From: Polystyrenella longa
GTDB lineage: Bacteria; Planctomycetota; Planctomycetia; Planctomycetales; Planctomycetaceae
Reading direction: 5' to 3'
Length of the DNA stretch: 64,000 bases
Assembly (NCBI RefSeq): GCF_007750395.1
Contig: NZ_CP036281.1
Location: 3,805,001 to 3,869,000, forward strand
The notes under the pieces are model-generated. The model ran no database searches and was not told the DNA's origin. It saw nothing but the letters and a program-made list of their open reading frames with translations. A program made the position numbers and the translations under genes. Positions 27,606 to 46,978 of the stretch are shown one piece after another. The number at the start of each line of letters is the position of its first letter. The stretch's first letter is position 1.

Positions 27606-27865
27606 CTTGAGTCGACTCTGCCGACTCGGTCGCCATTATAAACGGCAAAATGGGGAATCACTTATTTTGATTGGTGCGGATGAGGTTGTCAATCAACGGA
27701 GGCAAATTCGGATACGAGATGATGCGACCCACAATGTTGGTGCCCCAGAGTTGATTCGACGACTGCGATCAATTGAAATCGATTTCCCGCTTTTCAAGTG
27801 GGATAAGTTGACACTTCTACCGAATCTGGTTGGAGTAGGTGTATACAGTGTCGTTAGTGCATATC

Positions 27866-27934
27866 CAAACAAACTGTCAAACAAACTGTCAAACAAACTG
27901 TCAAACAAACTGTCAAACAAACTGTCAAACAAAA
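27866..27934. repeat. 12-bp tandem repeat, five copies plus a partial sixth
   Basis: The unit CAAACAAACTGT is repeated five times without error at 27866-27925, followed by a partial unit. The 12-bp length keeps a reading frame, and it lies in the intergenic region between argB and the divergent RidA-like gene, just before its real start. The lack of any change between copies suggests a recent slippage expansion. It could alter spacing in a promoter or leader, but no function is shown. Confidence 0.9.
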
Positions 27935-27985
27935 TATCCATCACGAATCCACCCGATCCAAACAATGAATAACTACTGGTGCTCC

Positions 27986-29233
27986 ATGCTCGATTATCAT
28001 TCTCATCTATCTTATCTCCGACCGTCTCTGCTTACGGCAGCCGTCTTTGCTCTCTGCCTGACGATGGGTGTTACACCTGCACCGGCAGAAGATGCCGTCG
28101 AAAGTATCTGGTTAAACGAATCGAGTCTATATGCAGACGCCGTCGTCGTGCACGATCAGGCACTAGTCCACAGCGGTCTGATCTTGCCTATTGGGAACTT
28201 TGGCGAAATCGCTGAGGGTGATTTCAAGGCCCAGTTATCTCAACTGGGAACGAACATAAGAAGAATTTCACAACCAGTCGACAAAAAGCATCATAAAGTT
28301 CTGATTCGCTACCATTTGGCATCCGAAGAGCATCTGAATTACATGAACGGAGAAGTAAAAAAGCACGCCGGCCCCGCTGATCACTCCCGCCCAATTCCGG
28401 TCATGACCTTGGTCGTCAGTCCTCTGCCACATCCAGAAGCTCTCGTCGGAGCCGAAATCATTTTCGCCACTGAAAACCAATATAAAGAAGTCACCTATCT
28501 TCCCACCTTCTTGAAAGAACACCGACTGACTGTTCTTCCACGTGGTCGAGCTATTTATATTTCCGGACAGCTGGAAAAAGGGGACGGCACCATCGAAACT
28601 GCCCGGTTGACCATGGAGGGGTTGCATAAGACTTTAGAACACATCGGTCTTGATGCGTCTCACGTCGTCAGTATTCGCACATTCCTCGATCCTATGTCCA
28701 AAGTGGGCGAAGTGGACGAAGTCGTCAACAGCTTCTACACAGGCGATATGAAGCCATCCATTACCCACATGGAATGGAAGACGACGGACAGCATCGAAAT
28801 TGAGATGGTCGTATTCGCGCCCGATGATGTCAGAATCGAAGGGGCTGATTCCAAACAGTCCGTACAACACTTCTGGCTTCCCTGGTTGACCGTCTCCCCC
28901 GTTTACTGCCGCTGGACGCTGGTGAACAGCCCGGACCGTATTTATATCGACGACATTCTGGCCCAGAATACGGCCACTCATGAAGAAGAGATCCATGAAA
29001 TCTTCGGAAAGATGAAGGAGATTCTCACCGCGACGGGCAGCGACTTCAACCATTTAGCCAAGGCAACCTACTACACGACTAACGCTGAAGTCAGCAAACC
29101 CTTTGGGCAGATTCGGCCAGAGTACTATGATCCCGAACACCCTCCCGCCGCATCTTTGGCGCGCGTACAGGGAATTGATGGGAAATCGAACTCCATCGCA
29201 ATCGATATGATCGCCGCTCCCGCGTCGAAATAA
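27986..29233 (+). CDS. exported protein with three RidA-like (YjgF/UK114) domains
   Basis: The start is placed at the ATG at 27986, giving 415 residues and a signal peptide (ending near APA-ED, residue 35); an upstream in-frame ATG at 27839 would translate the tandem repeat as a CQTN repeat and is unlikely. The mature protein looks like successive RidA-like modules: about 38-150, about 165-290 (YISGQLEKGDGTIETA, HVVSIRTFLDPM) and about 310-415 (a QNTATHEEEIHEIF helix, LAKATYYTT, PPAASLARVQGI). RidA proteins deaminate reactive enamines or imines; here an exported three-domain version probably has another role. Whether the catalytic arginine is kept in the last module is plausible (ASLARV) but untested. 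A bidirectional terminator follows. Confidence 0.75.
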   Translation: MLDYHSHLSYLRPSLLTAAVFALCLTMGVTPAPAEDAVESIWLNESSLYADAVVVHDQALVHSGLILPIGNFGEIAEGDFKAQLSQLGTNIRRISQPVDKKHHKVLIRYHLASEEHLNYMNGEVKKHAGPADHSRPIPVMTLVVSPLPHPEALVGAEIIFATENQYKEVTYLPTFLKEHRLTVLPRGRAIYISGQLEKGDGTIETARLTMEGLHKTLEHIGLDASHVVSIRTFLDPMSKVGEVDEVVNSFYTGDMKPSITHMEWKTTDSIEIEMVVFAPDDVRIEGADSKQSVQHFWLPWLTVSPVYCRWTLVNSPDRIYIDDILAQNTATHEEEIHEIFGKMKEILTATGSDFNHLAKATYYTTNAEVSKPFGQIRPEYYDPEHPPAASLARVQGIDGKSNSIAIDMIAAPASK

Positions 29234-29325: not shown

Positions 29326-30819
29326 TTAGACAACGACTTCTTCCAAGCTCGCTTCTTTCGATGTCTGCAGAAGCAACTGATTAAGATCAAGCTCGTAGTA
29401 ATGATCGTCCCGGGTGGGTTCCATTGGTCCGGGAGTGATGAACAACCGGCCTTCCTGGGGAGCGAATACCAGACTTCCTTGATTGTCGTTCCGCCGAACC
29501 GTGTTCTTGGTCGGGTGATTGGGAATTCGCTCCCGCTGGATATCGTATCGATCCCGTAACGAAGCCTGGGCTAGTTCAAGACTGACTTCCTCTTCCTCAT
29601 TCCATTGAAGTAAATCCTCTAATCGCTGAAGGCGGTATTCCGAGTGGCTGATTCGGTTCCCCGTCTCCGGTAGCATAATGGAATGATTCGTACTGAGTAA
29701 CCGACTCAGATTGCTACGAACGAAGACATCGTGTCCCTCGTATTCCAAATAGCAGATACGACCGGTACTCGCTTCACTCAGACAAAGCGACCAGGCCCCG
29801 TTTCGATCCATATCATGAAACACCGCGAGAGCGGACTCAATGCTGTCAGCTTTCTCCAGAATATTCTTTACAATCGCTGGGTGAATTCTTCCCTTGGATA
29901 TTTCCGGATGACGGGGTCGGTCGAGCAGAATCGTTGTCGAAACAGTCAAACCGCACTCGTTAATGCCGTTAAGGCCCCCCACCTGCCCTGCAATCGAATA
30001 CAGCAAGTTGCGATAGCCATCCTTCGGGTTCCGTAACTGCAACACCCGCCGCATGGCGGAACCGATCAGCATCGTGATGGGAGAATCTTCATTCACGCAG
30101 TGCAGCATTCGGCCGCCACGATTCGCCTCTTCCGAAATCGCAAACTGCGAGCAACCCGGAATGTATTCCGGATACAGACCAAGATTATGCCCCAGGGCCG
30201 CCGGAAAGCTGATTCCCATCGCATCGGCCAGACCGTGGATCTCTTCGATTTCAGATTCGCCGAAAAAGATCGTCGGGTCGGAAATGGCGTCATTGAGTTC
30301 AGGGATATCAAACAGTCGCGGACCCAGGACTTTCGCCACTTTCCGTGTTACCTGCTTCGTTTGCGCCGCTTGATTGCGACCATGCTGGAAACCCATCTCG
30401 TAGGGAGTTCCGCTTAACTCCACGACAGGAATCGGAAAGCCATCCGGAATGGAAGATTCAGACTGCTGACGTAAATCGAGGTTCTGATAAGTTCTTTCAG
30501 AAGATAGTTTTCGCTGGATGAAGTCCAGGATTTGGCGTAAAGAACAGGAGCCTCCCAAGGGCAATTCTTTGATCAAACCGACCAGCGAGCTGAGATTGAA
30601 TTGCTTTGAGACTTCAATCAACATCTCAATCTGCATACACCCGTCGATGAAATAATCATCATCGAGCGCTGCATCCAGATCGAATAGTCGAGCGGGATAG
30701 CCTGTTTTTTGACTCAGAAATTGAACGCACGCTTCAGCTAATGCATCCCTGCGAGAAGACAATCGAGGTGAACTCATTTTACCTGACCAGTAATCGCTAC
30801 CCGTTCCTGACGCGATCAT
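29326..30819 (-). CDS. C45-family acyltransferase/peptidase fused to a degenerate acyl-carrier-like domain
   Basis: The 497-residue protein has two parts. Residues about 25-105 look like a polyketide-type acyl carrier domain (QKTGYPARLFDLDAALDDDYFID), but the serine that normally carries phosphopantetheine (IDS) is replaced by G60. Residues about 130-490 match the C45/acyl-CoA:6-aminopenicillanic-acid acyltransferase family, an N-terminal-nucleophile hydrolase. It has a GC-S pair with the likely self-processing nucleophile C223 (PGCSQF), then GGRMLHCVNEDSP, and a GGLNGINECGL segment. Such enzymes cleave after a Gly to expose Cys and then hydrolyse or transfer acyl groups. No polyketide gene is in the window. 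It is an unusual architecture; whether the carrier-like part binds a partner instead of a cofactor is unknown. An in-frame ATG at residue 15 is an alternative start. Confidence 0.75.
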   Translation of the reverse strand: MIASGTGSDYWSGKMSSPRLSSRRDALAEACVQFLSQKTGYPARLFDLDAALDDDYFIDGCMQIEMLIEVSKQFNLSSLVGLIKELPLGGSCSLRQILDFIQRKLSSERTYQNLDLRQQSESSIPDGFPIPVVELSGTPYEMGFQHGRNQAAQTKQVTRKVAKVLGPRLFDIPELNDAISDPTIFFGESEIEEIHGLADAMGISFPAALGHNLGLYPEYIPGCSQFAISEEANRGGRMLHCVNEDSPITMLIGSAMRRVLQLRNPKDGYRNLLYSIAGQVGGLNGINECGLTVSTTILLDRPRHPEISKGRIHPAIVKNILEKADSIESALAVFHDMDRNGAWSLCLSEASTGRICYLEYEGHDVFVRSNLSRLLSTNHSIMLPETGNRISHSEYRLQRLEDLLQWNEEEEVSLELAQASLRDRYDIQRERIPNHPTKNTVRRNDNQGSLVFAPQEGRLFITPGPMEPTRDDHYYELDLNQLLLQTSKEASLEEVVV

Positions 30820-32708: not shown

Positions 32709-32738
32709 CCTTCCCACTCAAGATGGGAAGGTTTTTTT
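32709..32738 (+). terminator. intrinsic terminator after the ferredoxin gene
   Basis: An 8 bp perfect stem (CCTTCCCA with TGGGAAGG), 7-base loop and seven T follow the ferredoxin gene. A-rich sequence before the stem means it may also stop transcription of the giant convergent gene at 32770. Confidence 0.88.
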
Positions 32739-32769: not shown

Positions 32770-35700
32770 TTAACGACCGCGGCGACCTCGTCCGCGACGG
32801 GAGTTATTTCCACTTCCAAAGTTATTTTGAGGGAAAAGTTCCTGCAGCACTTCACGAGCGCGGCTGGAGTTAATCTTCTTCAGCGGTACAACTCGGAACG
32901 TCTGAGTCGATTCAGTCTCGGCCTTTTGATCCAATTGTTCGATTAAATCGACGACCTGATTCACCAGTCGATCTGCACCAGCAACGATAATCGAGTTCGT
33001 ATCTTCATCGACCGTCAACGTGAGCAGTGGGCCCGCCATTGTAATGTTGATCTGCTGAATCGTCGTGGCAACTTCCAGCGACACTCCTGTTGGAACCGGG
33101 ATCGGTCGTGCACCTCCTGCACTTCTGAGCTCTGAACTGTAAATATCTCTCAATACTGCTTCGATTCGAACTGCCGGAGCATTTTGGACGGTTACAATCC
33201 GCGGCTGATTCTGTTCAAGGACTTTGTTGCTCTCTTCCGTATCGAGAACCTGCAACAGTTCTTCAACCATGTCTCGTTCTTTTTTGTTTCCATAAACGAT
33301 GAGGGCATTCAATCGTTCGTCTGCCTGAATCGTAATGGAAGAAAACGGTGAGAAGCTGGTTTGACGATTCCGAGCCCCCCCACCTCGTCGGCGATTGTTC
33401 CCGTTGAACAGATCGTCCAGAGTATCTTCCACGCTTTCTGCACTCGCGTACTTCAACTGGAAAATAACAAAGTCCTTCCCAAGAGAAGGCTGTGATTCGT
33501 TACGGGACATTGCTCGTAATAATCGTTCAATCTGATTAAGTGCTTCCGGATCATCGGAAGAGATCGTAATGCTGTCACTACCGGGAGCAATAATGACTGG
33601 AGGTGCCGACTCGTTATCCGCATTCTCTTGCACAGAGATATCGGGTCCGGGTTGTGTAGGCATCGGCTGCTCGGGTTGAGTCGGTGCAGGTTGCGCCGGC
33701 TCAAGTTGATTGTCCTCGACTGCAGCAGAAGGTTTTACGGGTGCGGCTTCCTGGGGTGCCGCAGCAGGTTCATTGAACTGAGACGGAACATCTTGGCTGG
33801 CAGATGGCGTATTCGCTTTCTCCTCTGCTTCTGCTTTCTCCGCTTCTTCAATCGCCTTCAGTTTCGCTCGCGCTTTATCAATGAGCTTTTGCATTTCCTG
33901 CTGTTCCCGCAATTCTTCAGCTGTAGGTTGAGGCTCTGCAGCCTGTTCTGTAATTACCTCTTCCACCGATTCTGTTTCCGCCGGTTCTACAATGGCTTCT
34001 TCCACTAGTTCCGCTTTCTCGGCTTCTACGTCATCTTGAACAGAAAAGTTAGCGTTGTTTTCCGGGTCAGTATTTTCAGGGGTGTCCTCATGAATCTTCC
34101 GAAACTTACGCATGGTCGGTGCGACGGCGGAAGGGACGACTAGTTTAATACGGTTACTCCGCAACTGAGGCCAGATTCTCTGTAACTCTTCAATCGCTTC
34201 CTGGGTGTTTCCTTCGAAAGGAATGACTCGGATTTTCTTGTTATTGGAAGAGGTACTCTCGGCCAGGTGGTTTTCACCCATTTTGACGAGGAACTCACGG
34301 ATATTCTTAATCTGCTGATCCGAGCCACGAACCAGCAACTGCTGATTGGCGACGTCGGAATCGATCAAGGGTGCGGACGGATTGTCGTCCCAGATCGAAT
34401 TCCCGAAGAATCGTTCCACTGCCGCTTCCGCAGTGTAGGCGTCGTTCAGTTGCAGGTTAAAGACTTCGAGTTTTTTACCTTCATCCGGATCCATGTCGAG
34501 TTGCGCAATGGTCTCTTTGACGCGAGCCTGGTCTGTTTCCGAAGCAGTAACGACGATGGAATAGTTACTGGCATCGATACCAACTTGAGCATCAGGAACT
34601 GAACTTCGTAAGGCGACCTGGAGTGAACGTGGATCAGCATTCTCAAGACGATAGACGGCAATCGTGTTTTCTGTGGTTCCCTCTTCGAGAGCGACCATCA
34701 TTTCGCCTATTCGCTCATGCTCGATTGGTTTCGCATACACGACAACCGAGTTTGATTCTCTGTTTTCAGTGACACTCACGGTTCGGCTGTTTCTAAAGAG
34801 ATCCGTGATCACACGAAGCAAAGAGTTCGAAGCAATCTTTTCGCTTTGATAGACTTTCGAAACACGATCCGTCACAACTTGAGACTCTTCGGCTTCCAGT
34901 TGTTGAATCATTTTCTCCACTAGCGCCTGTTCTTCCGCTGATCCGGCCACCATCAGCGTATTACTTTGATTATCAAAAGAGACATTCGCATCAGGCAACA
35001 TTCCTCGTAACACCTGATACATCGCGCGGGCATCAATTTCGTCCAGTTTGTAAACCTGACTAACGATTTCTTTTGCTGATGCTTCAATCGCGGCGACCGC
35101 TTCTTCAATCTCGACCATTTTCTTTTCAGGAGCGAAGGCCATCACCATCCCACCTTGAGGATCGAGAGAAATACTGACTTCCGGATTTCGGCGAAACTGT
35201 GCCAGTAAAAGTTGATACAAGGAACGCCCGGAAACCTTAGAGCTCGAAAAAGCCTTTGATATGGATGTGTTTTTTTGTTGGTCAATTTCGGCGATAGTGG
35301 CAGCGATTTTTTCCTGATATTCAGCAGGCGCATGAGCCATAATAATATTATTTTGCGGGTCTACCGAAAAATAAATGTCCTGTCGGAACCGATACAGATT
35401 CTGCAGCATATTCACTAACGAGTTCGGCTGAACATTTTCGACCGGGTAAGCTTTAATTTCCTGGTTTGTTTGACTTCCCTGGACATCAATTGACTCCAGC
35501 ATTTCCGCAAGTCGTGCGTGATCATTATCAGAACCGACAAACACAATGGATCGGGTCGGTTGATCGGGCACGGCCGGATTTCGAGGAAACATAGCCCGGA
35601 CGATTCCAAACGTCGCATTCACATCGAGGTTTTTTAGTGGATACGCCTTGGATGTCTGTGCTGCACCCACTGAGTCGAGACTGTCGATGAATTCGGCAAT

Positions 35701-38700
35701 CTCCACATGCTGTGGATCGGTTGCGTAAGCAACGAGTGTGCTCGTATTGGCGTCCATCGAGAAGCGGACTTCGGGTTGGAATGCAAACAAAGTTTGCAAC
35801 ATACCCATCATACTGCTCACTTCGACGTTATTAATTTTGTAATGCTTCAGCAGGTTCCCTCGTGAGGAAGCCTCTTTTGAATCCATCTCAGCCACTGCGG
35901 CGGCAATCGTTTCCTGATCCGCCGGCGAAGCAGTGACGACCAGGCTGCGAGCACGTTGATCAACGGCGATATTCGCCTGCGGAGTCAACGTACGTAAAAC
36001 AGCTATAGCCGCATTTGGATCAGCATGTTGAAATCGGTAGACTTTGGGGACTGGTTTTTCATCTTTTGGTAGTTTCTCTACCAGGTCGGTAATGGCTGCA
36101 GCCAACCCCTCCATCTGATCTTCGGGTGCCTGCACAATCAAATTGTCTGTCGCGGTGTTAGGCGTAAAGTTGGCGTTCGCTTTCAAGTCCGGCTTTAAGA
36201 ATTCCAGCAAGGTTATGTGACTGACATTGTTGAGAGGAAAAACCTGAATCGCTCTGTTTTCACTGTCTCCCAGGCTGCTGTCCAGTTTTTCAACAATGGC
36301 AGCCAATCCTTCATGCTCGTTCGGTCTGGCCCAAATGGCCAAGTGCCGTGGATCTTGTGTCGTCGTAATTCGAGTCTGTGGAAAAGCCATCTGCAAAATC
36401 GCGATCGCATTGGCGGCGGGAATCTTGTTGAAGGTATAGGTTTCCACATAAGCATCCTTGGCGGGCGGGCCATCAGATTTAATCTGCTCGATGATCTTGT
36501 CGATCTTTGCCAGTTGAGCAGGTGAACCCCAAACCATCAGTTTGCTGGGGTCCTGACTGTAAGAAACAACAATGCCCGGAACAGCATTGGCAACGATAGG
36601 ATAGGCATAGGCCGACCCTGTCGCTTCTAATGTGTAAATTCTCAACTCGAAATCATTGCCACCTGCTTGGGCATCCAGCTTGGTAACCATTTCCTGAATT
36701 TTGACATGCTGTTCCGGTGTCGCCCAGGTCACTAACTTTTTGTTGTCGGGACTGGCGCCAAAGCGAACGGAAGGGTGGGCGGCCTGAATGATCGACTGCG
36801 CGACACTGGCCGGGACAGTTTCCAGCGAATAGACCGTCATTTCTCCACTGTTTACCGCTGTCTCTTCAGCTTCTAATTTATCCACAATGGATTTGATTTC
36901 ATCATGTTCCGCAGGAGTCGCCCAGACAATCATTTTGTATGGATCGGGCGAGTGACCAAATCGGGCAGAGGTAATCTCAGCCTGAATGATAGGCACAACC
37001 GCAGTTGCCTGTGTTGCATTAAAGCTATAAACCCTCATCTCGGCATCCTTACCGACAGGTCCCTGCTCTTCCAGCTGAGTAATAATCTGAGCAATTTCCG
37101 CATGACCCGACTCAGTCGCCCAGATGATCAACCGTTGCAGAGAATTACTGGTAGCGAAGGTCGCGCGGGGAACAGCCTGTTGAATCACGGGGACGACCAT
37201 ATTGGTATCGATCCCTTTCAATTCATAAATTTTCATCGAAGCATTTGATTGAGGTTTCCAATCGGCATCGATCTGCTCGATCATCTTGGCGTATTCAGCA
37301 TGTTCTTCTTCTGATCCCCAAAGAATGATCTTATAAGGATCGGCAGTTCCGAGCGTGTATTTCGCTTGTGGAAAAACCATCATCAAGGTTTGACCGGCAT
37401 TGGCTCCTGGAATACTTTCGAGCGAATAGACTTTCAATGAAGCCGTTTCATCGATCTGACCTGCATCGAGTTTTACAATGATATCGCGAATGAGCTGAAT
37501 CTGGCTTGGTCGCGCCACCACCATCACAGCGGTGTCATCCCGGGAAGCTCGAACTTCCACGTCGGGTAATGCATCTTCCAATAATCGGCGAACATCGTTC
37601 GCATTGGCTTTCTTCAAAGCGATCCTGGCCGCTTCTGGCTTTTCAGCCGAGTCCGACTGTTCTTTCAGCTTCTGAAGTGTTTCCGATAGTTTCTGGTGTT
37701 CTTCCTCAGTGGCGATGGCGATGATCGTCCCCGCATCGGGGTCGTCTTCCAGAGTCGCTCCGGGAACGAGCTGACGCAGCAATTTAACCAAGTCGCCGCC
37801 GCTTTTACCTTCCAGTCCGGGATAGACAGCCGTGGTTCGATCCGATTCGTCGCTGGCCGCTTTTGTCTGTGCTTGCATTTTTTCCAGGATTGAAGCCAGT
37901 CGATTCTGAGCTTCTTCGTCACCGAAGATAATCACATTATTTGCAGTAGGATCATGAGTGACGCGTGCCGCAGGAGCGGCCTCCTGGAGTATTGGCTGAA
38001 TTACGGCAAAGGTGACATTCTTCAACGGAAGGATGACGAAGTTCTGTTGAAACTCACCCGGTTCGCCACTGTCGATCTGCTCGAGCGAGGATTTAATCGC
38101 TTCCTGCAGAGCTGGACGGGTCCAGGCAAGAATCGAACGGGTCCGAGTCTCCATCATGAATTTTGTATCAGGAAACAAATTCTGCAATACAGCCAGAGTT
38201 TCCGTCGGTTCAGCCACTTTCAACTTATAGGAGATTAGTTGTTGTTTTTCAGCGAGAGGTACATCACTCTTAATCTGCTCCATAATGCCAGTCAGCTTCT
38301 CGTGCTGTTCAGGTCGAGCCCAGATGGCAAGTTCTCCCGGAACGGTTTCCGGCAAGACTTGTAACCCCGGGAAATCTAGCTGCAACGTCGGAACTAAAGC
38401 CTGAAAACGTTGTTTCTGGATCGAAGTGACAGAGTAGCTCTGCAGAACGTTTTCCGCTTTCTCTTCGGTTCCCGCTAACAGTTTTCCAATGTTCGCTTCT
38501 GCTTTTGCCTGATCTTTGCTCTTCGCGATAACCATGATACGACTATTCGGCTCGTCGTGAGTGATCGTTGCCCCCGGTGTCATCTGTTGGAGCAAGCTGA
38601 TGAAGTTTGGCTCCAGCTTTTCGGGAACGGGGTAAAACTTAAAATCAGCTTCTTCTTTTTTAGGCTCTTCCGCGTCGAGTTGATCGACAACCGCTTTCAG

Positions 38701-40779
38701 TGCGGCTTGTTCTTCAATGTCAGCAATCACAATCAAACCACGACGACCGGGGTCGACCATAATCTGAGCCTGTTTGAACAAACCTTGTAAAACAGTCATG
38801 GTGGTTGTGGGATCGGCCCGTTCCAGTTTGATCAATTCAATCTGCCGGTTGGGACGTTCCTCCGAATTGGTCGTCCACTCATCCAATGCACTCTGAACCT
38901 GTTCGTGCTCACGAGCCGTCGCAAACGCAAGTAGCTTGGAAGTCTCGGTATCCCAACTAAGTCGAACAGTGGGTAGCAGTTGTTGTAAATTTGTGACGAC
39001 TACAGTCGAATCGAGCGAACCGATGTCGTAAAAGTCCAATTTCTGAAGTGAATTGTCAGGGACATCAATCTGCTGAAGAGCGGCTTCAATTTCCGTTTGA
39101 ATCGCATCGTCAGCAATCACCAGCAGGCGTTTGCCTTCTAATGTAATTTTGGCAGTCGGAGCAAGCTCCTGCAGTGTTGTAACCAAACTGGTCGAGGGAG
39201 TTTCCTTCAGCACATACGTCTTCAGATTACTCTGATTCTCTGGCTCTTCCTGCAACTGATTGAGTAGAGACTTAATCGCCTCATGCTCTTCCAGTGTCCC
39301 AAACGCAACGATGGCATTCTGGCGTTCATCGGAGGTCAATTTAACACGCGGCAACACCTGCTCCAGCAATACGAGAGCAGTTGCCCGTTCGATGTTTTTC
39401 AACCGGTAGACTTCTACCTGGCGTTCGTTACTGCTGGGGACCCCACCTGAGCCCAGTTTCTCCAGGATCGATTTCACTTTCGACTGTTGATCGGGTGTGC
39501 CAAACACAACCAGTTGTTCCTGGGCCACATCATGACGAACCTGAACTTCGGGCAATCCGAGTTGAACAGCTGCAACCGTCTCGACAGCATTTGCAGGATC
39601 GACCGGATACACTTCCAGCGCGGCACTCATTTCGGGTGCGGTATCAGCACCAATCTGTTCGACAATTTTCGCGATAGCGTCATGTTGTGGAGGAGTTGCA
39701 TAGGCATTGATTCGTTTCGCTGTTGGATCAGCAACGAACTTGGCTCCAGCGACCAGCTTTTCCATCGTTTCAATCGCGGCTTCCGCATCGAAGGTTTCGG
39801 CAGGGTAGAAGCGCAGTTCTGGCTCAGGTGGTTTAGGTTTGTCTTCTTTCTTCGGTGGTTGTGGAACAGGAATGCTTTTGATCAATTCCTGAATACTAAC
39901 CAAACTCTTAACCTGGTCCGTCACGATTATCTGTCCCGTTTTCGGCAACAGTGAACTTTCGCCATGCGGGCCCAGCATGGGTTTTACTTCTGTCTCAACG
40001 TCAGTCGGTACACGTCCTTCCAACGGGAAGACGGTGGTAACCAGTTCGTACCGTCCACGCTCAGCCCACTCTTCCGGTTTAATTCGGGGAATCAATTCCT
40101 TGGGCAGTTTTTCAGAAAGATCAACAACCATCAACATGCTGTCGCGACGGATCAACGTGTAATCCTTGGTTGCCAGCCAGCTGTTCATCTTGTCGATCGC
40201 TTCGCTCGGTGTGTATTCCCGATTGTCGCGGTAGTTAAATGTTCCGGGTGGTGGTGCATCAATGACCAGAGAAAGCCCGGCCTGGTCCGCAAACCATTCA
40301 AGCACGTCCGACCAGCGCGAGTATTTGAAATTGAACCGAATCTTCGGTTGAACCAGTTTCACAAATTGATTCAGTTGCTCGACATTCAATATTCCTCTCA
40401 ATTGCACGTCGCTGGCAGCGATCAGTTCGTCGCGCGCTTCCGGAGCGGCCGAGACGACTGTCTCCGCTCGTGAGGTGAGCAATTCTGCAACTTTCGCCTT
40501 CTGTTCATCGGTCAGTCCAATCCCAGCCTGTATCGTAGGATCGCCCAATCGAGCGTAAGGCACAGCGAAGTCCGTCACGGGTGCCGGAGGTGCAGGAGCC
40601 GGAGTTTCTGGTGCGGGCTGAGCAGGCTCGGCGGGTGCAGGGGTGTCGGCAGGTGCTGCGGCCGCATCTTGCCCGAACGTTGAGGGCAAATTCCAAAGAG
40701 CCAGGCTACACCACAAACTTGCACTCATCAGGCACAAGTATTGTCGGCGGAAGGAAGTGAAACTGAATGCTGAAGTCAT
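32770..40779 (-). CDS. giant exported protein with ~30 tandem secretin N-domain-like repeats
   Basis: From the ATG at 40779 (AGGAAA 11 bp upstream) the product is 2669 residues; an ATG at 40842 would add 21. It begins with a signal segment and an Ala/Pro-rich stretch. A helical part follows, then an N0-like domain (roughly residues 145-225). From about residue 235 to 2220 about 30 successive ~66-residue units repeat the pattern Y-x-L, amphipathic helix with L-x-x-x-x-P, D-strand, I-x-V/W-A, and H-x-x-I helix (KVYSLESIPGAN and WATPEQHVKI are examples). The units resemble secretin N1/N2 domains. A Glu/Pro/Gln-rich linker (about 2230-2405) leads to three more such domains and a basic RG-rich end (NNSRRGRGRRGR). 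No secretin outer-membrane barrel domain is present, so it may be a periplasmic scaffold or pore-lining component; that role is inferred. Confidence 0.85.
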   Translation of the reverse strand: MTSAFSFTSFRRQYLCLMSASLWCSLALWNLPSTFGQDAAAAPADTPAPAEPAQPAPETPAPAPPAPVTDFAVPYARLGDPTIQAGIGLTDEQKAKVAELLTSRAETVVSAAPEARDELIAASDVQLRGILNVEQLNQFVKLVQPKIRFNFKYSRWSDVLEWFADQAGLSLVIDAPPPGTFNYRDNREYTPSEAIDKMNSWLATKDYTLIRRDSMLMVVDLSEKLPKELIPRIKPEEWAERGRYELVTTVFPLEGRVPTDVETEVKPMLGPHGESSLLPKTGQIIVTDQVKSLVSIQELIKSIPVPQPPKKEDKPKPPEPELRFYPAETFDAEAAIETMEKLVAGAKFVADPTAKRINAYATPPQHDAIAKIVEQIGADTAPEMSAALEVYPVDPANAVETVAAVQLGLPEVQVRHDVAQEQLVVFGTPDQQSKVKSILEKLGSGGVPSSNERQVEVYRLKNIERATALVLLEQVLPRVKLTSDERQNAIVAFGTLEEHEAIKSLLNQLQEEPENQSNLKTYVLKETPSTSLVTTLQELAPTAKITLEGKRLLVIADDAIQTEIEAALQQIDVPDNSLQKLDFYDIGSLDSTVVVTNLQQLLPTVRLSWDTETSKLLAFATAREHEQVQSALDEWTTNSEERPNRQIELIKLERADPTTTMTVLQGLFKQAQIMVDPGRRGLIVIADIEEQAALKAVVDQLDAEEPKKEEADFKFYPVPEKLEPNFISLLQQMTPGATITHDEPNSRIMVIAKSKDQAKAEANIGKLLAGTEEKAENVLQSYSVTSIQKQRFQALVPTLQLDFPGLQVLPETVPGELAIWARPEQHEKLTGIMEQIKSDVPLAEKQQLISYKLKVAEPTETLAVLQNLFPDTKFMMETRTRSILAWTRPALQEAIKSSLEQIDSGEPGEFQQNFVILPLKNVTFAVIQPILQEAAPAARVTHDPTANNVIIFGDEEAQNRLASILEKMQAQTKAASDESDRTTAVYPGLEGKSGGDLVKLLRQLVPGATLEDDPDAGTIIAIATEEEHQKLSETLQKLKEQSDSAEKPEAARIALKKANANDVRRLLEDALPDVEVRASRDDTAVMVVARPSQIQLIRDIIVKLDAGQIDETASLKVYSLESIPGANAGQTLMMVFPQAKYTLGTADPYKIILWGSEEEHAEYAKMIEQIDADWKPQSNASMKIYELKGIDTNMVVPVIQQAVPRATFATSNSLQRLIIWATESGHAEIAQIITQLEEQGPVGKDAEMRVYSFNATQATAVVPIIQAEITSARFGHSPDPYKMIVWATPAEHDEIKSIVDKLEAEETAVNSGEMTVYSLETVPASVAQSIIQAAHPSVRFGASPDNKKLVTWATPEQHVKIQEMVTKLDAQAGGNDFELRIYTLEATGSAYAYPIVANAVPGIVVSYSQDPSKLMVWGSPAQLAKIDKIIEQIKSDGPPAKDAYVETYTFNKIPAANAIAILQMAFPQTRITTTQDPRHLAIWARPNEHEGLAAIVEKLDSSLGDSENRAIQVFPLNNVSHITLLEFLKPDLKANANFTPNTATDNLIVQAPEDQMEGLAAAITDLVEKLPKDEKPVPKVYRFQHADPNAAIAVLRTLTPQANIAVDQRARSLVVTASPADQETIAAAVAEMDSKEASSRGNLLKHYKINNVEVSSMMGMLQTLFAFQPEVRFSMDANTSTLVAYATDPQHVEIAEFIDSLDSVGAAQTSKAYPLKNLDVNATFGIVRAMFPRNPAVPDQPTRSIVFVGSDNDHARLAEMLESIDVQGSQTNQEIKAYPVENVQPNSLVNMLQNLYRFRQDIYFSVDPQNNIIMAHAPAEYQEKIAATIAEIDQQKNTSISKAFSSSKVSGRSLYQLLLAQFRRNPEVSISLDPQGGMVMAFAPEKKMVEIEEAVAAIEASAKEIVSQVYKLDEIDARAMYQVLRGMLPDANVSFDNQSNTLMVAGSAEEQALVEKMIQQLEAEESQVVTDRVSKVYQSEKIASNSLLRVITDLFRNSRTVSVTENRESNSVVVYAKPIEHERIGEMMVALEEGTTENTIAVYRLENADPRSLQVALRSSVPDAQVGIDASNYSIVVTASETDQARVKETIAQLDMDPDEGKKLEVFNLQLNDAYTAEAAVERFFGNSIWDDNPSAPLIDSDVANQQLLVRGSDQQIKNIREFLVKMGENHLAESTSSNNKKIRVIPFEGNTQEAIEELQRIWPQLRSNRIKLVVPSAVAPTMRKFRKIHEDTPENTDPENNANFSVQDDVEAEKAELVEEAIVEPAETESVEEVITEQAAEPQPTAEELREQQEMQKLIDKARAKLKAIEEAEKAEAEEKANTPSASQDVPSQFNEPAAAPQEAAPVKPSAAVEDNQLEPAQPAPTQPEQPMPTQPGPDISVQENADNESAPPVIIAPGSDSITISSDDPEALNQIERLLRAMSRNESQPSLGKDFVIFQLKYASAESVEDTLDDLFNGNNRRRGGGARNRQTSFSPFSSITIQADERLNALIVYGNKKERDMVEELLQVLDTEESNKVLEQNQPRIVTVQNAPAVRIEAVLRDIYSSELRSAGGARPIPVPTGVSLEVATTIQQINITMAGPLLTLTVDEDTNSIIVAGADRLVNQVVDLIEQLDQKAETESTQTFRVVPLKKINSSRAREVLQELFPQNNFGSGNNSRRGRGRRGR

Positions 40780-41847
40780 AAGGTCGATTTCCTGTCGGTT
40801 GATCTCACTTGCTCTCAGTCTGGAAAACAAAGAGACCAACACGAATTTGAAAATGAAGCTACGGGTAGCAATAAATCAGAAGCCCGAATTAAATAGGACA
40901 AACAGAGATACTACAAAGCGAAAGGGATGATCCGATTTTTCTCGCCAGTGGAATAATTCAGGGGGAAGTTTCTTAACGGAATGAGATCGTGCAGGTCACA
41001 GTCATTTCTAAAACGGATTCGCAAGAGGTGCGGAAAAGTATCTGTTCAGATATAACTGCGTTCGGGAAAAAAGTTCTTTCTAGTTCAGAACCTTCCTCCC
41101 CGGAGGGTAGGAACTCACGACGTCTAATCAGGGTGGGGTGCTCGACTTTCGTCTCACAAATCATGAATCGAAGGCGGGAGGGAGCAGAACAGGGTCTATT
41201 CCCCAGATGATTCATTTGGAAAGTTCTCTCTAGAATACCTCACGAAGTTGGTCAGGTAAAGAGTTTTGGAGGATTTGTGTCCTTTAGGAAGTCGCATCCC
41301 TTAGGTAGACAATGTTCAGTAGCCTGTTTCACCCTTGATGAGCGCTTCTCAATCATCAGTACACGTTAAAGCAACTCACGTGCCCGGCAGCCAGGTATGT
41401 TTCAGTAAGTCGCTTCCAATGGACTCCAAAACCACTTCTAACTCATGTATTACGCTATTTTGTGATTCCATGAACTCTTGATGAACATCCGCCTGGGGGA
41501 TTCCTCACCCTTCCTTGGGCAAATCGACGTTTCCGAAAAGCAACAGGGCTCCACTCGGGATGTCGCAGAAAATAAACAGTCGTCGGTCTTGTCCTGAGGG
41601 AGATTTCTCTAAAAAAATTAATCCGCGATTCCTCAAATTACAGGCTTTCTCGAATCATTTCAGACTGTATTTCTCGCTCTCAGTCATTCTGGCACACGAA
41701 TCGCGTAATCACTCTTCGTCTCGTCTTTCGTGAATCAGTGCACTGCATTGAATACTCATAACGACCTCCATCAGAGACATGCCGTCCGCAGGCACATGAG
41801 CAGGTTCAAACCATTGAAACTGTAGCCACTTTTCGAGGAATGCCACG
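40780..41847. other. about 1 kb without recognised genes upstream of the giant gene
   Basis: Between the giant gene and the small gene at 41848 I find only short shadow frames. Some G-rich and pyrimidine-rich stretches occur (for example near 41093-41113, a hairpin-like CCTCCCCGGAGG) but none that I can assign. It should hold the promoter and leader of the giant gene. Confidence 0.4.
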
Positions 41848-42353: not shown

Positions 42354-43163
42354 TTAGAGCGCATGACGCTGAGAATGCCGCGCAATCTGCTCCGTCTTTC
42401 GTTTAATCCGCTGTAACAATGCCTGATCACAGGCTGATTTGGACCGCTCGAAATAATTTTCCACGAACAGATCGTGATATCGTGAATCGAGCATGCTGGC
42501 AGAATACCGGAGTTGAGCCAGGTCTTTCACGATCCATCGCTCATGCAATCGAGGACGCTTCAAAACACGTCCAAGATCAATCACATGGATCGTCTGTGGT
42601 GATCCATTCTTCGCAAGCATCAAATGGCCCAGGTAATAATCCTGATGATGCATCCCGGCGGAATGCATTTTACGGGTAATCTCGGCAACCTGCTTGACCA
42701 CCGACTCCAGTTGCTCTTCCTCGGGTTGTTGATCCCGGACCCAGTGCGAGAGCTTCCAGCAATCCTCCAGAGACTCGGTTATCAGAAACGAATAGCGTCC
42801 TTTCTCTCCGAACGCGACAGGGATCATCGTTGAGATTCCAACCTGATGAAAGTTGAGAATCGCCTCCCATTCGTAACGGGCACTCAACAGCGGAGTTCGC
42901 AAACGACTCCAGGCTTTGAGATATTCTTTCATCGGGGCCGGCGTGTGTCGTTTAATATAAAACGAGCGTGAGGCCCCGGAAGTATCAGTTAAGTCGATCC
43001 GCGTAGTGACCCGTTCTGCCAGCACATTCTTGGCTGTTTCGCCGCCCGAGTAGTCCATCAAGGCGTTAAATGTCGTCAGTCCATTCTGTTTTAGAACGGC
43101 GGTAAACTCCTGGTTCACCTGCACCCGACCCTCGTCCCAGTTTTCAAACTCGAAATTTTTCAT
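42354..43163 (-). CDS. WaaP-like lipopolysaccharide core kinase
   Basis: The start is set at the ATG at 43163, with GAGGAAG about 7 bp upstream, giving 269 residues; an upstream ATG at 43202 adds 13 residues and lacks such a site. The protein matches the Kdo/WaaP lipopolysaccharide kinase family: HHQDYYLGHLM is the catalytic-loop equivalent of HxD, and VIDLGRV replaces DFG. It should phosphorylate a heptose or Kdo of the LPS inner core on the cytoplasmic side. It overlaps the upstream glycosyltransferase gene by 20 bp, so translation is probably coupled. It is the last gene of the hldE-waaF-GT4-waaP-like operon. Confidence 0.85.
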   Translation of the reverse strand: MKNFEFENWDEGRVQVNQEFTAVLKQNGLTTFNALMDYSGGETAKNVLAERVTTRIDLTDTSGASRSFYIKRHTPAPMKEYLKAWSRLRTPLLSARYEWEAILNFHQVGISTMIPVAFGEKGRYSFLITESLEDCWKLSHWVRDQQPEEEQLESVVKQVAEITRKMHSAGMHHQDYYLGHLMLAKNGSPQTIHVIDLGRVLKRPRLHERWIVKDLAQLRYSASMLDSRYHDLFVENYFERSKSACDQALLQRIKRKTEQIARHSQRHAL

Positions 43164-44289
43164 GGAGTACTTCCTCAAAAACTTCGAGTGTTCGTTCAAC
43201 ATTTTTTTCGATTGGCATCTGCTCTGCCGTAGCCCAGCAATTGGCCCGCATCGCGTCCAATTCCGAGTCCGATTTTTTGAAATGCGTATCCAGCAGTTCG
43301 ATCATCTCTTCCACGGCATCAATCGCCGAGATTAAATATCCATTTTCCTGTTCTCGAATAATATCTGCCCCGCCCGATGTGCTCGTCGTCAGCACCGGCA
43401 ATCCGCACGCCATCGCTTCCAGATTGACATTCGGAAAAGGTTCGTATGCCGTCGGAAGAATGAAGAGGTCCCCCGCTCCATAAAACCGCTGGATATCACT
43501 GCGGCGTCCTAGAAACTGCACCCGTTCCTGAACATGGAATTCCTTCGCTATTGCCTGGTACTGAGGGATTGGCCCCTTACCGAGCACGGCAAGGACGACA
43601 TTATCTTCCTGCATGCGGGAGAGCGATTCAATAATGTACCTGAGCCCCTTCCCCGGGAAATCCATGGATGCGAAGACCATTAACTTCTGATCGGAACTCA
43701 AGGCGAGTTCTTCGCGTATCTCATCGCGAGAATCCCGTTGAGCGAGATTGAACTGTCCGAGATCAACACCGTTGTAGACGATGCGAATCTTTTCTTCCGA
43801 AATGCCGTAATTCTCCATCACCAATCGTCGGTCCAATTGTGACTGGGTGATAATTCGTTTGGTATCAGACGATTGATAAATCTGCCGTTCCATCTCGACC
43901 AAAGTGCGATGCCGTGGGTTCCACGTCTGCATCTGGTAGCGCCACTGGGGTTTGTAATTGACCCGAAGCCAGTGCGACTGCAACCGTTCTGTTACGCGTA
44001 CTGCATCAAGTCCGAAAGCACGACCGATCCCATAGACGAGATCGAACTTTCGCTTTTTAACTTCTTTGCCACAGTTCTCGGCAAAAGAGCGGTTTTTCGT
44101 CGACGACATCATCATATTTCGTCGCACCGGGATAAACTCAACCTCGTCTTGCAGTTCTTCATCAATCGTATGACCAATGACGGAAACGTCGTGCCCTCGT
44201 TTCTTCAACTGCCGCGACAGATTCACGCAATACCGTTCCGACCCACCATGCCGTAATGAATAGCGACCTTTGACTAATGCAATGTGCAT
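43144..44289 (-). CDS. GT4-family glycosyltransferase (LPS core)
   Basis: The start is placed at ATG 44289 (MHIALVKGRYSL, with AGGA 8-10 bp upstream), giving 381 residues. The frame extends 70 codons further upstream but only through sequence of the preceding gene. The GT-B fold of family GT4 is shown by a G-G-S-E-R-Y start (about 16-21), IRIVYNGVDLGQFN, the LGRRSDIQRFYGAGDLFILPTAYEPF stretch, and the E-x7-E motif with FPNVNLEAMACGLPV near the C terminus. The first strand with RHGGSERY suggests a WaaG-like role, adding a sugar to the heptose region. Its overlap with the WaaP-like kinase supports an LPS core function. Confidence 0.88.
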   Translation of the reverse strand: MHIALVKGRYSLRHGGSERYCVNLSRQLKKRGHDVSVIGHTIDEELQDEVEFIPVRRNMMMSSTKNRSFAENCGKEVKKRKFDLVYGIGRAFGLDAVRVTERLQSHWLRVNYKPQWRYQMQTWNPRHRTLVEMERQIYQSSDTKRIITQSQLDRRLVMENYGISEEKIRIVYNGVDLGQFNLAQRDSRDEIREELALSSDQKLMVFASMDFPGKGLRYIIESLSRMQEDNVVLAVLGKGPIPQYQAIAKEFHVQERVQFLGRRSDIQRFYGAGDLFILPTAYEPFPNVNLEAMACGLPVLTTSTSGGADIIREQENGYLISAIDAVEEMIELLDTHFKKSDSELDAMRANCWATAEQMPIEKNVERTLEVFEEVLHEKFRV

Positions 44290-44360
44290 GGAGTATTCCT
44301 GAGAAACATTTACTGTTTGGTGGAACCATTGAAAAAGAGGGACATTCACGCCCTTAGAAG

Positions 44361-45416
44361 TTACGCCGCGCGGCGAACTTGCCCCGATTGTCCCTGTTCC
44401 CACAGACTCACCACCGTTTGATAAACGGTCTCCACCTTCATTCCTGTCATGCACCGATGATGACCGAGCGGACAGTCTCGCTTCTGGCAGGGGCCGCAAT
44501 CGACTTCTTTCTGGAGGTTAATTCCTTTGTCGTAGTAGGTATCGCTCCAGGCAATATGCGTCGGCCCGTATAGCGAAACCACGGGGACATTAAATGGCTG
44601 GGCGAAATGGCGAGGACCGGAGTCCGTCGTGATGAGGAGTTCACTCTCTCGGATCGCCGCTTTGGTCAGTCCCAGACTCAGTTTCTCACCAGCCAGCGTG
44701 ATCACCTGGGGGTGATCGGCTTGCCGTACAATCTCACGCGCATTGTCGACTTCGGACGGACCACAGAGAACCAGAATCGTTTTGTTCTGCTCAACAGCCA
44801 GCTTGCGTGCCAGTTCTGCAAAATACTCCTTCGGCCAGTCTTTCGCCGCTCCAAATGCGCCGCCAGAATTAATGCAGATGGTCCCCTTGTTATGCAGAAC
44901 CGATCCCTGCTTCCTCCAGAACATTTCAATCGCGTCTTCATCAGCGGAAGTGACGGCCAACTCAGTTTGACGAGTCAATTGCGTGCAGCCCAGGTGCTCT
45001 GCCAGACGCAGGTATTCATCGACAACTGGATTCGGTACTTTTCGGGATAGAGGTTGAAGTCGATCCGTCAGCAACCAGCCTCGGAGATCGCGACTGAAAC
45101 CGACGCGTCGACTTGCACCAGACAACCAGGCCATCGCCGCAGTTCGCAGCGAATTAGGAAACAGCACAGCGATATCGATTTTTTCAGATCGCAATTCCTG
45201 CGACAGATTCCAGGCTTTTAACTCGGGGTTACGCGTGCGGGGCGAATACAACAAGGTCCGGTCGACCAGATCAAGTCCTTCCAGAACTTGCCCGACATAG
45301 GGCCGCATAATGCCGAAGATTTCGGCATCGAGATAATGTTCCCGAATCGCCCGGATAGCGGGCGTCGCCATCACAGCATCGCCGATCCAGTTTGGTAAAA
45401 AGAGAGCGATTTTCAT
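44361..45416 (-). CDS. waaF: ADP-heptose:LPS heptosyltransferase II-like (GT9)
   Basis: The 351-residue protein has the GT9 heptosyltransferase pattern: FLPNWIGDAVMATPAIRAIR at the N terminus, ICINSGGAFGAAKDWPKEYF in the middle, and ITTDSGPRHFAQPFNVPVVSLYGPTH near residue 270. It also has a C-terminal C-G-P-C-x-x-x-x-C-P cluster common in WaaF. It transfers L-glycero-D-manno-heptose from ADP-heptose to the LPS inner core. Its ATG overlaps the hldE stop codon by four bases (ATGA), so both are co-translated, and hldE makes its donor. Confidence 0.92.
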   Translation of the reverse strand: MKIALFLPNWIGDAVMATPAIRAIREHYLDAEIFGIMRPYVGQVLEGLDLVDRTLLYSPRTRNPELKAWNLSQELRSEKIDIAVLFPNSLRTAAMAWLSGASRRVGFSRDLRGWLLTDRLQPLSRKVPNPVVDEYLRLAEHLGCTQLTRQTELAVTSADEDAIEMFWRKQGSVLHNKGTICINSGGAFGAAKDWPKEYFAELARKLAVEQNKTILVLCGPSEVDNAREIVRQADHPQVITLAGEKLSLGLTKAAIRESELLITTDSGPRHFAQPFNVPVVSLYGPTHIAWSDTYYDKGINLQKEVDCGPCQKRDCPLGHHRCMTGMKVETVYQTVVSLWEQGQSGQVRRAA

Positions 45417-46978
45417 CCTGCTTTTCGCTCCAATGGGTTGGGAGTAGTGACTGGGGGTTTGGTCGGCATTGTGAATGTAGTCGGTGCGACAGGTTCCGTC
45501 GGTGTCTGACGTAATCGCTCAACGATGTTCGTCGTCGACAGGCCCGCCACGATGGTCAGTGGTTTCACTTCACCGCCATACGCTTCAACGACTTCCTTGC
45601 CCACGATCTCGTCTTTGGAGTAGGTACCCCCTTTGACAAGCAGATCGGGCTGCAATTCTTTCAACAACTGATTGGGAGTGGCATCGTTGAAGATAATCAC
45701 ATAGTCAACTGATTCCAAACTGGCGAGCATTGTCGCGCGATCGTCCTGACTGAATAGTGGCCGGTCAGGGGCTTTGTCCAACATGCGAACGCTCTCATCG
45801 CTGTTGAGCGCCACAATCAGACAATCCCCTTCCTGCGAGGCTTGTTTCAGATAGGAAACATGACCCACATGCAACAGATCAAAACAACCATTCGTAAACA
45901 CAATTTTTTGATCGAGCCGTCTTCGAGCATGTAGTTGCCGTTTGAGATCGACCAGCTCACAGATTTTGTCTTCATGGTGTCGTCGCGACGCGAGCAAATC
46001 ACCCAGGATTTCGTTTCGGTGAACAAGAACCACACCGACCTGCTCCACTTGAAGACCACCCGCAACGTTGGACAGCTTGGACAAGTTTTCCGGGTCAATA
46101 CCCGCTGCCATGCCAATGCCAATCATCGCGAGAACTGTATCGCCCGCCCCGGTGATGTCGCATACTTCTCGTTTTCGAGTTGGGTGATGCACGCCTTCCT
46201 CGCTGGCCCGAGCGAGGACGACGCCATCTCTATCGATGGTGATGTAAGCGTGATCCAGTTCCAAGTCCCGGCAGAGCTGTTGTCCTGCCCGGCTCGCGTC
46301 TTCAATCGAATCGATATCGAATCCAACAGCCCGGCCCGTCTCGGCCCGGTTGGGAGTGATGGCCGTCACTCCTTTATATAAATCCCAGTTTCCATGTGCC
46401 GGAGGATCGACGAGAACAGGAATTCCATGTTTTTTCGCTTCAGCGACAATCGCGCCGATCACTTGAGGAGTACAAACACCCTTCGCGTAGTCGGAGATCA
46501 AAATCGCAGCATGCTCGGAAATGAGGGGGAGTAATTTGGCAATTAAGCGTGCTCCATCCTCTTCACCCAGGGGTGTGCGGACTTCCCGGTCGACTCGCAG
46601 CATTTGATGGGGGTGACGATGCTGGGCTCGCCCCAGAAATCGTTCTTTAACGGTTGTGGGACGATCTTCTACCTCCAGTAGGCCATCGCAACAGACGCCC
46701 GCCCCTTCGAGTTGGACACGAAGATCCTTCGCATCGAAGTCAGCGCCCACGAGACCGGACATGGTGACTTCAGCCTCCAGCCCGCGCAGCAGGTTGGCCA
46801 CATTCGCAGCACCACCCAACCGAGTCTCCCGCTTTTCTTCTGAAAGCAGTATGACGGGGGCTTCCTGACTGATCCGATCCGCTTCACCCCAGATGTACCG
46901 ATCGAGAATAAGGTCCCCAAGAACCAGAATCCGAGGATTTCCCAGCCGCTCCACCGCATCAATGAGATAATAAGACAC
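45413..46978 (-). CDS. hldE: bifunctional heptose-7-phosphate kinase / heptose-1-phosphate adenylyltransferase
   Basis: The 521-residue fusion has a ribokinase-type kinase (about 1-325) with GDLILDRYIWGEADRISQEAP, ISDYAKGV and the catalytic DITGAGDTV. A cytidylyltransferase-like domain (about 355-490) starts with VFTNGCFDLLHVGH. These are the two activities of HldE/RfaE, which makes ADP-glycero-manno-heptose from sedoheptulose-derived intermediates (a phosphatase and epimerase are not in the window). It is the first gene of a four-gene LPS-core operon and implies LPS with heptose in this organism. The last 30 residues are a Pro/Thr-rich tail after the catalytic domain. Confidence 0.94.
   Translation of the reverse strand: MSYYLIDAVERLGNPRILVLGDLILDRYIWGEADRISQEAPVILLSEEKRETRLGGAANVANLLRGLEAEVTMSGLVGADFDAKDLRVQLEGAGVCCDGLLEVEDRPTTVKERFLGRAQHRHPHQMLRVDREVRTPLGEEDGARLIAKLLPLISEHAAILISDYAKGVCTPQVIGAIVAEAKKHGIPVLVDPPAHGNWDLYKGVTAITPNRAETGRAVGFDIDSIEDASRAGQQLCRDLELDHAYITIDRDGVVLARASEEGVHHPTRKREVCDITGAGDTVLAMIGIGMAAGIDPENLSKLSNVAGGLQVEQVGVVLVHRNEILGDLLASRRHHEDKICELVDLKRQLHARRRLDQKIVFTNGCFDLLHVGHVSYLKQASQEGDCLIVALNSDESVRMLDKAPDRPLFSQDDRATMLASLESVDYVIIFNDATPNQLLKELQPDLLVKGGTYSKDEIVGKEVVEAYGGEVKPLTIVAGLSTTNIVERLRQTPTEPVAPTTFTMPTKPPVTTPNPLERKAG

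Follow-up and report, generated by a model that had tools for sequence, protein, structure and literature searches.

Secretins have been described as single polypeptides in which a docking N0 domain and an outer-membrane barrel are separated by a few N rings. The locus studied here raises the question of what a protein might do when it carries the N domains in great number and has no barrel. It lies in a 64,000-nucleotide stretch of the genome of the planctomycete Polystyrenella longa (the window; contig NZ_CP036281.1, positions 3,805,001 to 3,869,000 of the forward strand), in which a minus-strand gene (32770..40779; Pfam Secretin_N E = 3e-152, in 20 stretches) encodes a protein that we call the giant, with about 31 βαββα units of the Secretin_N type (PF03958). 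An earlier note on this DNA had recognized the tandem units and had suggested a periplasmic scaffold, a component of crateriform pores, or a bridge between the inner and outer membranes. We present evidence that the giant is very probably a component of a type II secretion system (T2SS), and, with more reserve, we lean towards the view that the giant and GspD are the two halves of a split T2SS secretin.

Results

Giant genes and T2SS genes in relatives

Homologues were sought with the N-terminal 240 residues of the giant as the query. Although 60 of the 61 sampled genomes of the family gave a match, the full giant N-terminus was present in only about nine of them, and the remaining matches were mostly to a shorter companion protein of about 1,200-1,400 residues or to the N0 domain of GspD. 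In the phylum sample, the giant N-terminus was found at E <= 1e-45 in 2 of 294 genomes. No barrel domain was found in the giant open reading frames (ORFs) at any of the 46 non-redundant loci, and T2SS genes are present at 25 of these. A recurrent order is gspD–lipoprotein–giant–gspE–gspF–gspG (loci L107, L108 and L110), which in some cases continues with gspH-gspI; Pfam matches place gspE, gspF, gspG and the pseudopilin genes past the giant or the companion. In Fuerstiella marisgermanicae (genome G042; L053, L155), one stretch reads giant–gspE–F–G–H–I–J–K–L–M/C-like–gspD. In a tree of GspE sequences, the T2SSs that come with a giant form one clade (99/100), which includes the GspE of P. longa itself. 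The linkage to gspE/F/G-type genes in relatives is accompanied by a partner barrel GspD encoded in the same genome, both in P. longa and in further giant-bearing genomes. A barrel gene linked to homologues, which the earlier note had proposed to look for, thus exists in relatives, although in P. longa gspD is unlinked; and the stand-alone scaffold suggested there is difficult to reconcile with the 25 loci and the GspE clade.

The short barrel-less companion (about 1,200 residues) resembles the giant in having N0 and Secretin_N units, of which Pfam detects about six stretches in the L063 protein, and its gene lies immediately 5' of gspE (L063, L067, L069 and others). Such companions are widespread across the family. 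They differ from the giant in size, in that the GspE proteins of their systems fall outside the giant clade, and in that the partner GspD keeps its own N0. No description of a short barrel-less T2SS companion was found in the literature searched.

The N0 domain of the partner GspD

The full-length barrel GspD proteins of the giant lineage at the fetched loci are all without N0, whereas N0 was detected in 11 of 11 GspDs from short-companion systems (26-52 bits). Four genomes (G023, G042, G047 and G053) each hold one N0-less and one N0-bearing GspD. The rule is imperfect, as N0-less GspDs were also seen near short companions (L127, L131). Among the genomes examined with the secretin barrel profile PF00263, eight with a giant (P. 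longa, G015, G020, G023, G029, G042, G047 and G053) have a GspD that lacks N0, and in eight without a giant N0-bearing GspD is the only kind; the association is significant if shared descent is ignored (Fisher p ~2e-4). The status of the GspD of G007 rests on the giant N-terminal search, and G054, in which GspD is fragmented, was left uncounted.

The GspD of P. longa (L018) follows the pattern of its lineage: the 1,295-residue protein opens with a Secretin_N-type unit right after the signal segment, without N0, and contains a barrel as well as eight Secretin_N stretches. Next after gspD comes a lipoprotein-like gene (L018 12349..13659), homologues of which stand beside most N0-less GspDs; its product is a candidate pilotin-like partner. 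PF00263 gave five matches in four ORFs of the P. longa genome, none of them in the giant. One of the secretin-like proteins of this genome (L021 3136..7704; 1,522 residues) has its barrel match in two pieces split by long TGT-rich repeats, and similar large frames occur in relatives.

Domain anatomy and predicted structure of the giant

An unbroken frame extends over 32770..40842 of the minus strand (2,690 codons counted from a GTG at 40842, from which residues are numbered here). We prefer the ATG at 40779 as the start, with the stop at 32770, because the relative at L083 (68% identity over aligned residues) begins at the identical residue (MTSA) with the identical ACAGGAA upstream. The resulting 2,669-residue protein agrees with the single frame of about 2,670 codons reported earlier. 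All of the parts described below are encoded on the minus strand.

The protein begins with a Sec-type signal segment recognized by eye (residues 22-57; 40672..40779), a hydrophobic run after FRRQ that ends at TFG-QD. It is followed by an Ala/Pro linker and an LTDEQ-type helical region (96-164; 40351..40557), whose faint likeness to the chaperone Spy (PDB profile E ~0.05-0.09) is suggestive only. Next comes an N0 domain (165-250; 40093..40350), conserved in the L083 protein, the model of which superimposes on the N0 of GspD (4jtm) with Z 12.2 and a root-mean-square deviation (rmsd) of 2.0 Å over 80 residues; a GspC-GspD structure is also among the structural matches of the giant model. The signal segment and N0-like domain of the earlier note were both substantiated, but the N1-like domain that follows (253-328; 39859..40086), identified by a GspD N1 profile match (E 0.002) and by the model, had been overlooked there.

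Because no off-diagonal match emerged when the giant was compared with itself by BLASTP, the repeat units were located by an iterated, self-built profile. This profile and Pfam define 27 contiguous Secretin_N units (340-2115; 34498..39825), each 57-62 residues long with a spacing of about 66 residues, and the first six of them were modelled; partial matches continue towards the C terminus. There, a degenerate unit 28 (about 2124-2188; 34279..34473) is suggested by a weak repeat match and by prediction. Unit 29 appears to be split. Its first half (2204-2235; 34138..34233) and second half (2416-2450; 33493..33597) were recognized by predicted secondary structure and by motifs in the A3 consensus, and they flank a Glu/Pro/Ala/Gln-rich insertion of 180 residues (2236-2415; 33598..34137) that is predicted to be mostly disordered, with a predicted local distance difference test score (pLDDT) of about 40 except in one helix. 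Units 30 and 31 (2456-2645; 32908..33477) are closest to N2-N3 of GspD according to PDB matches and to the GspD model TIGR02517, whose best stretch pairs residues 2416-2639 of the giant with positions 126-333 of the model. The protein ends with a half-unit and an RG-rich basic tail (32773..32907), identified by sequence and prediction, at the place usually taken by the secretin barrel; the half-unit is conserved, and the tail is present in some relatives only. The linker, units and RG tail of the earlier layout are therefore real, but the linker seems, as far as the prediction goes, to interrupt unit 29 and not to separate two units, and two units and a half-unit, instead of three units, come after it. 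The mature giant has no cysteine.

The total of about 31 units, obtained from the repeat profile and prediction, upholds the former estimate of about 30, and a Pfam search of the giant with PF00263 found no match, in keeping with the earlier statement that a barrel is absent. Although N0 and Secretin_N units are both present, the family rules do not make the giant a GspD, since a search for the barrel gave no match; the giant's score against TIGR02517 (350.4 bits) falls slightly below the cut-off of 351.35.

In the AlphaFold model of residues 157-732, every unit has the βαββα fold (mean pLDDT 85.8; predicted template modelling score, pTM, 0.40), and one repeat superimposes on the N domains of GspD and PilQ with an rmsd of 1.5-1.9 Å over 58-59 residues, which bears out the KH-like secretin N fold proposed in the earlier note. 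Confidence is lower for the model of the C-terminal part (pLDDT 71.2), whose units, too, are matched by N domains of GspD.

Selection on the array and changes in unit number

Identity between units within the giant averages 21%, with a maximum of 47%. When the giant is compared with the L083 protein, units align in register at about 68% identity and whole units have been gained or lost. N0 is the best-conserved part of the protein (86% identical, versus 68%), and, the signal and LTDEQ regions aside, conservation is lowest in the insertion in unit 29 (50%). The three codon positions of the repeat region diverge by 0.245/0.155/0.61, which indicates purifying selection on this region. Among the giants of relatives, the lowest unit number is 11 and the highest at least 49, and changes involve blocks of whole units, with block duplications in some giants, such as a four-unit period in L098. 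Complete giants reach 3,259 residues and 35 units, and incomplete ones reach 49 units. At one locus (L093 954..7500), the giant occupies two ORFs of 1,058 and 1,131 residues, possibly owing to a frameshift or as a genuine two-part version.

One could envision that so long an array is an expansion without a selected function, or even an assembly error, given that unequal recombination readily expands repeat arrays and that unit number differs among close relatives. We consider this explanation scarcely credible. The genome is a single contig of 99.95% completeness, the frame is intact in 27 complete relatives, and the mean identity between units is too low for a recent or collapsed array; the codon-position divergence argues in the same direction.

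The P. longa locus

The T2SS operon of P. longa (gspE-F-G-H-I-J-K-L-M/C-like, in L080) was named by position and similarity, several of its genes having no Pfam match. The giant gene stands between lipopolysaccharide (LPS) core genes and a C45/AAT-type hydrolase gene. Because these flanks are common to L082 and L083, the separation of giant and T2SS is, judged from gene order, a trait of a small lineage comprising these two and P. longa.

This arrangement bears on the possibility that the giant is a periplasmic scaffold or envelope organizer of T2SS descent that has become uncoupled from the T2SS in this lineage. The giant is unlinked to the T2SS here, the flanks in L082 and L083 contain no T2SS gene, and directly past the giant gene there is a terminator-like hairpin (32709..32731, minus strand; a 9-bp stem with a T-rich tail, a consensus match only). 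However, the GspE of P. longa is still inside the giant clade, its GspD still lacks N0, and N0 and the C-terminal units are the best-conserved parts of the giant. We regard uncoupling as improbable.

The intergenic region of about 1 kb upstream of the giant contains a block of about 115-175 bp (41106..41277, minus strand) that shares 76-82% identity with its counterparts in L083 and L082. No ORF and no Rfam family was found in this block, which could contain the promoter or encode a leader or small RNA. Directly upstream of the giant lies the LPS core cluster (42354..46978, minus strand), which encodes an RfaP-like heptose kinase, a glycosyltransferase, heptosyltransferase II and an HldE-like protein in an order common to P. 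longa and L083. On the other side, a C45/AAT autoproteolytic acyltransferase-type enzyme is encoded (29326..30819, minus strand); a weak match links its N-terminal ~110 residues to part of the polyketide synthase PfaA, and they are perhaps a fused carrier-like domain. Elsewhere in the window are a gene for an apparently tandem Rid domain protein (27839..29233, plus strand; 464 residues, two Rid/L-PSP stretches) and one for a 1,203-residue protein in which a protein kinase domain precedes WD40 propeller repeats (260..3871, minus strand).

Giants and crateriform structures

The crateriform structures of planctomycetes link the outer and cytoplasmic membranes in the manner of press studs and carry pilus-like fibres (PMC5394234), properties that would suit a secretin-type complex, and the short barrel-less companions are common in the family. 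Craters cover the cell surface of Stratiformator vulcanicus and Alienimonas californiensis and are confined to the pole in F. marisgermanicae. The N-terminal search did not find a giant in S. vulcanicus (G013) or in A. californiensis (G007), whereas F. marisgermanicae has one. The giant is therefore not present wherever craters occur and is unlikely to belong to craters in general. Full giant N-termini are, moreover, restricted to the small number of family and phylum genomes given above. The crateriform-pore role raised in the earlier note thus loses its footing, and we judge it highly improbable that the giant belongs to these pores.

Discussion

The N0 domain of an ordinary GspD docks to the inner-membrane platform. 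Since in its lineage the giant alone carries N0, we infer that docking and extension fall to the giant and that it then passes on to GspD. According to this proposal, the giant would be exported to the periplasm as the inner-membrane-side half of a split secretin, its N0 would replace that of GspD in docking to the platform, and the approximately 31 N-domain units would prolong the periplasmic conduit. The GspD-like C-terminal units of the giant would then meet the N domains of the N0-less GspD, which forms the outer-membrane pore. Unit number would serve as an adjustable length that matches the machine to the deep and variable periplasm of planctomycetes. On balance, we favor this division of one secretin between giant and GspD. 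The earlier idea of a bridge between inner and outer membranes remains the best of those offered then, but its author had missed the T2SS membership and the separate barrel GspD without N0.

How the chains might be arranged is a further question. Were the units to stack as rings, with each layer taken to be 2.5-3.8 nm high, an array of 28-31 units would be about 70-120 nm long. The giant and the N0-less GspD may thus form one ring-symmetric hollow tube of about 70-120 nm, longer with about 49 units; we put this forward tentatively, as a possible arrangement. A single chain closing into a ring is disfavored because unit number varies so freely. Alternatively, one or a few giant chains might run like beads on a string from the platform (N0 end) to the GspD channel (C-terminal end) without a continuous tube, holding the membranes together across a variable gap. 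The same genetic evidence would apply to such a tether as to the split secretin, and the confident single domains in an unfixed arrangement, the variable unit number and the long disordered insertion near the C-terminal end would all suit it. On the other hand, the N domains of this family form rings in known secretins, and N1- and N3-like domains at the two ends would be needless for a pure tether; the low pTM, being expected of any isolated multidomain chain, does not favor it. We think that the tether is unlikely.

Several observations weigh against a split secretin, with or without a tube. The model does not fix the domain arrangement, and multi-domain overlaps gave rmsd values of up to 28 Å and more. 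No T2SS gene was seen at 21 of the 46 giant loci, though many of these are short contigs, and in P. longa the giant stands alone, with the T2SS operon and gspD located elsewhere. The loss of N0 and the acquisition of the giant may have been a single evolutionary event, in which case the genomes are not statistically independent. Short companions occur together with N0-bearing GspDs, so the presence of N0 in a companion does not oblige GspD to lose its own. Inspection by eye suggested a GspC-like HR domain in the gspM-like protein, but neither Pfam nor PDB profile searches showed it; PDB profile matches of the same protein to designed Pizza proteins were judged spurious. Lastly, a deep periplasm is also present in planctomycetes outside the survey of giants.

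Comparison with known systems shows what is shared and what is not. GspD (TIGR02517; PF03958 plus PF00263) resembles the giant in its signal segment, N0, N1, Secretin_N units and N2-N3 region, to which the C-terminal units of the giant correspond. It differs in having a barrel and the usual three N-domain units after N0, and in relatives a separate barrel gspD gene adjoins the giant gene. GspC and GspB/OutB connect the inner-membrane platform to the outer-membrane secretin, the job proposed here for the giant, and are far smaller; no sequence relationship between them and the giant was seen, though no search aimed at one was made. PilQ of Thermus thermophilus has six N rings and a length of 350 Å, which is said to allow it to cross a wide periplasm (PMC5745081). 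As in the giant, added βαββα N domains lengthen its periplasmic part; unlike the giants, which are barrel-less and have up to 49 or more units, PilQ is a single polypeptide with its own barrel. In the open-access literature searched, we found no account, for planctomycetes, of a split secretin or of a secretin-like protein that lacks a barrel.

The planctomycete periplasm can be greatly enlarged (PMC5394234), and that of F. marisgermanicae has been described as unusually enlarged (PMC5177795). F. marisgermanicae NH11 is a cultured strain that combines such a periplasm with a complete giant–T2SS operon. A T2SS lineage of planctomycetes appears to divide docking and barrel between two proteins, one of which has been enlarged by tens of units. 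If this is true, it offers a concrete answer to the question of how a machine that crosses the whole envelope can work where the periplasm may be far deeper than that of model bacteria. If, in addition, the giant and GspD do form a tube, the length of a secretin would be set by the number of its N-domain units, and the T2SS would secrete across a deeply enlarged periplasm.
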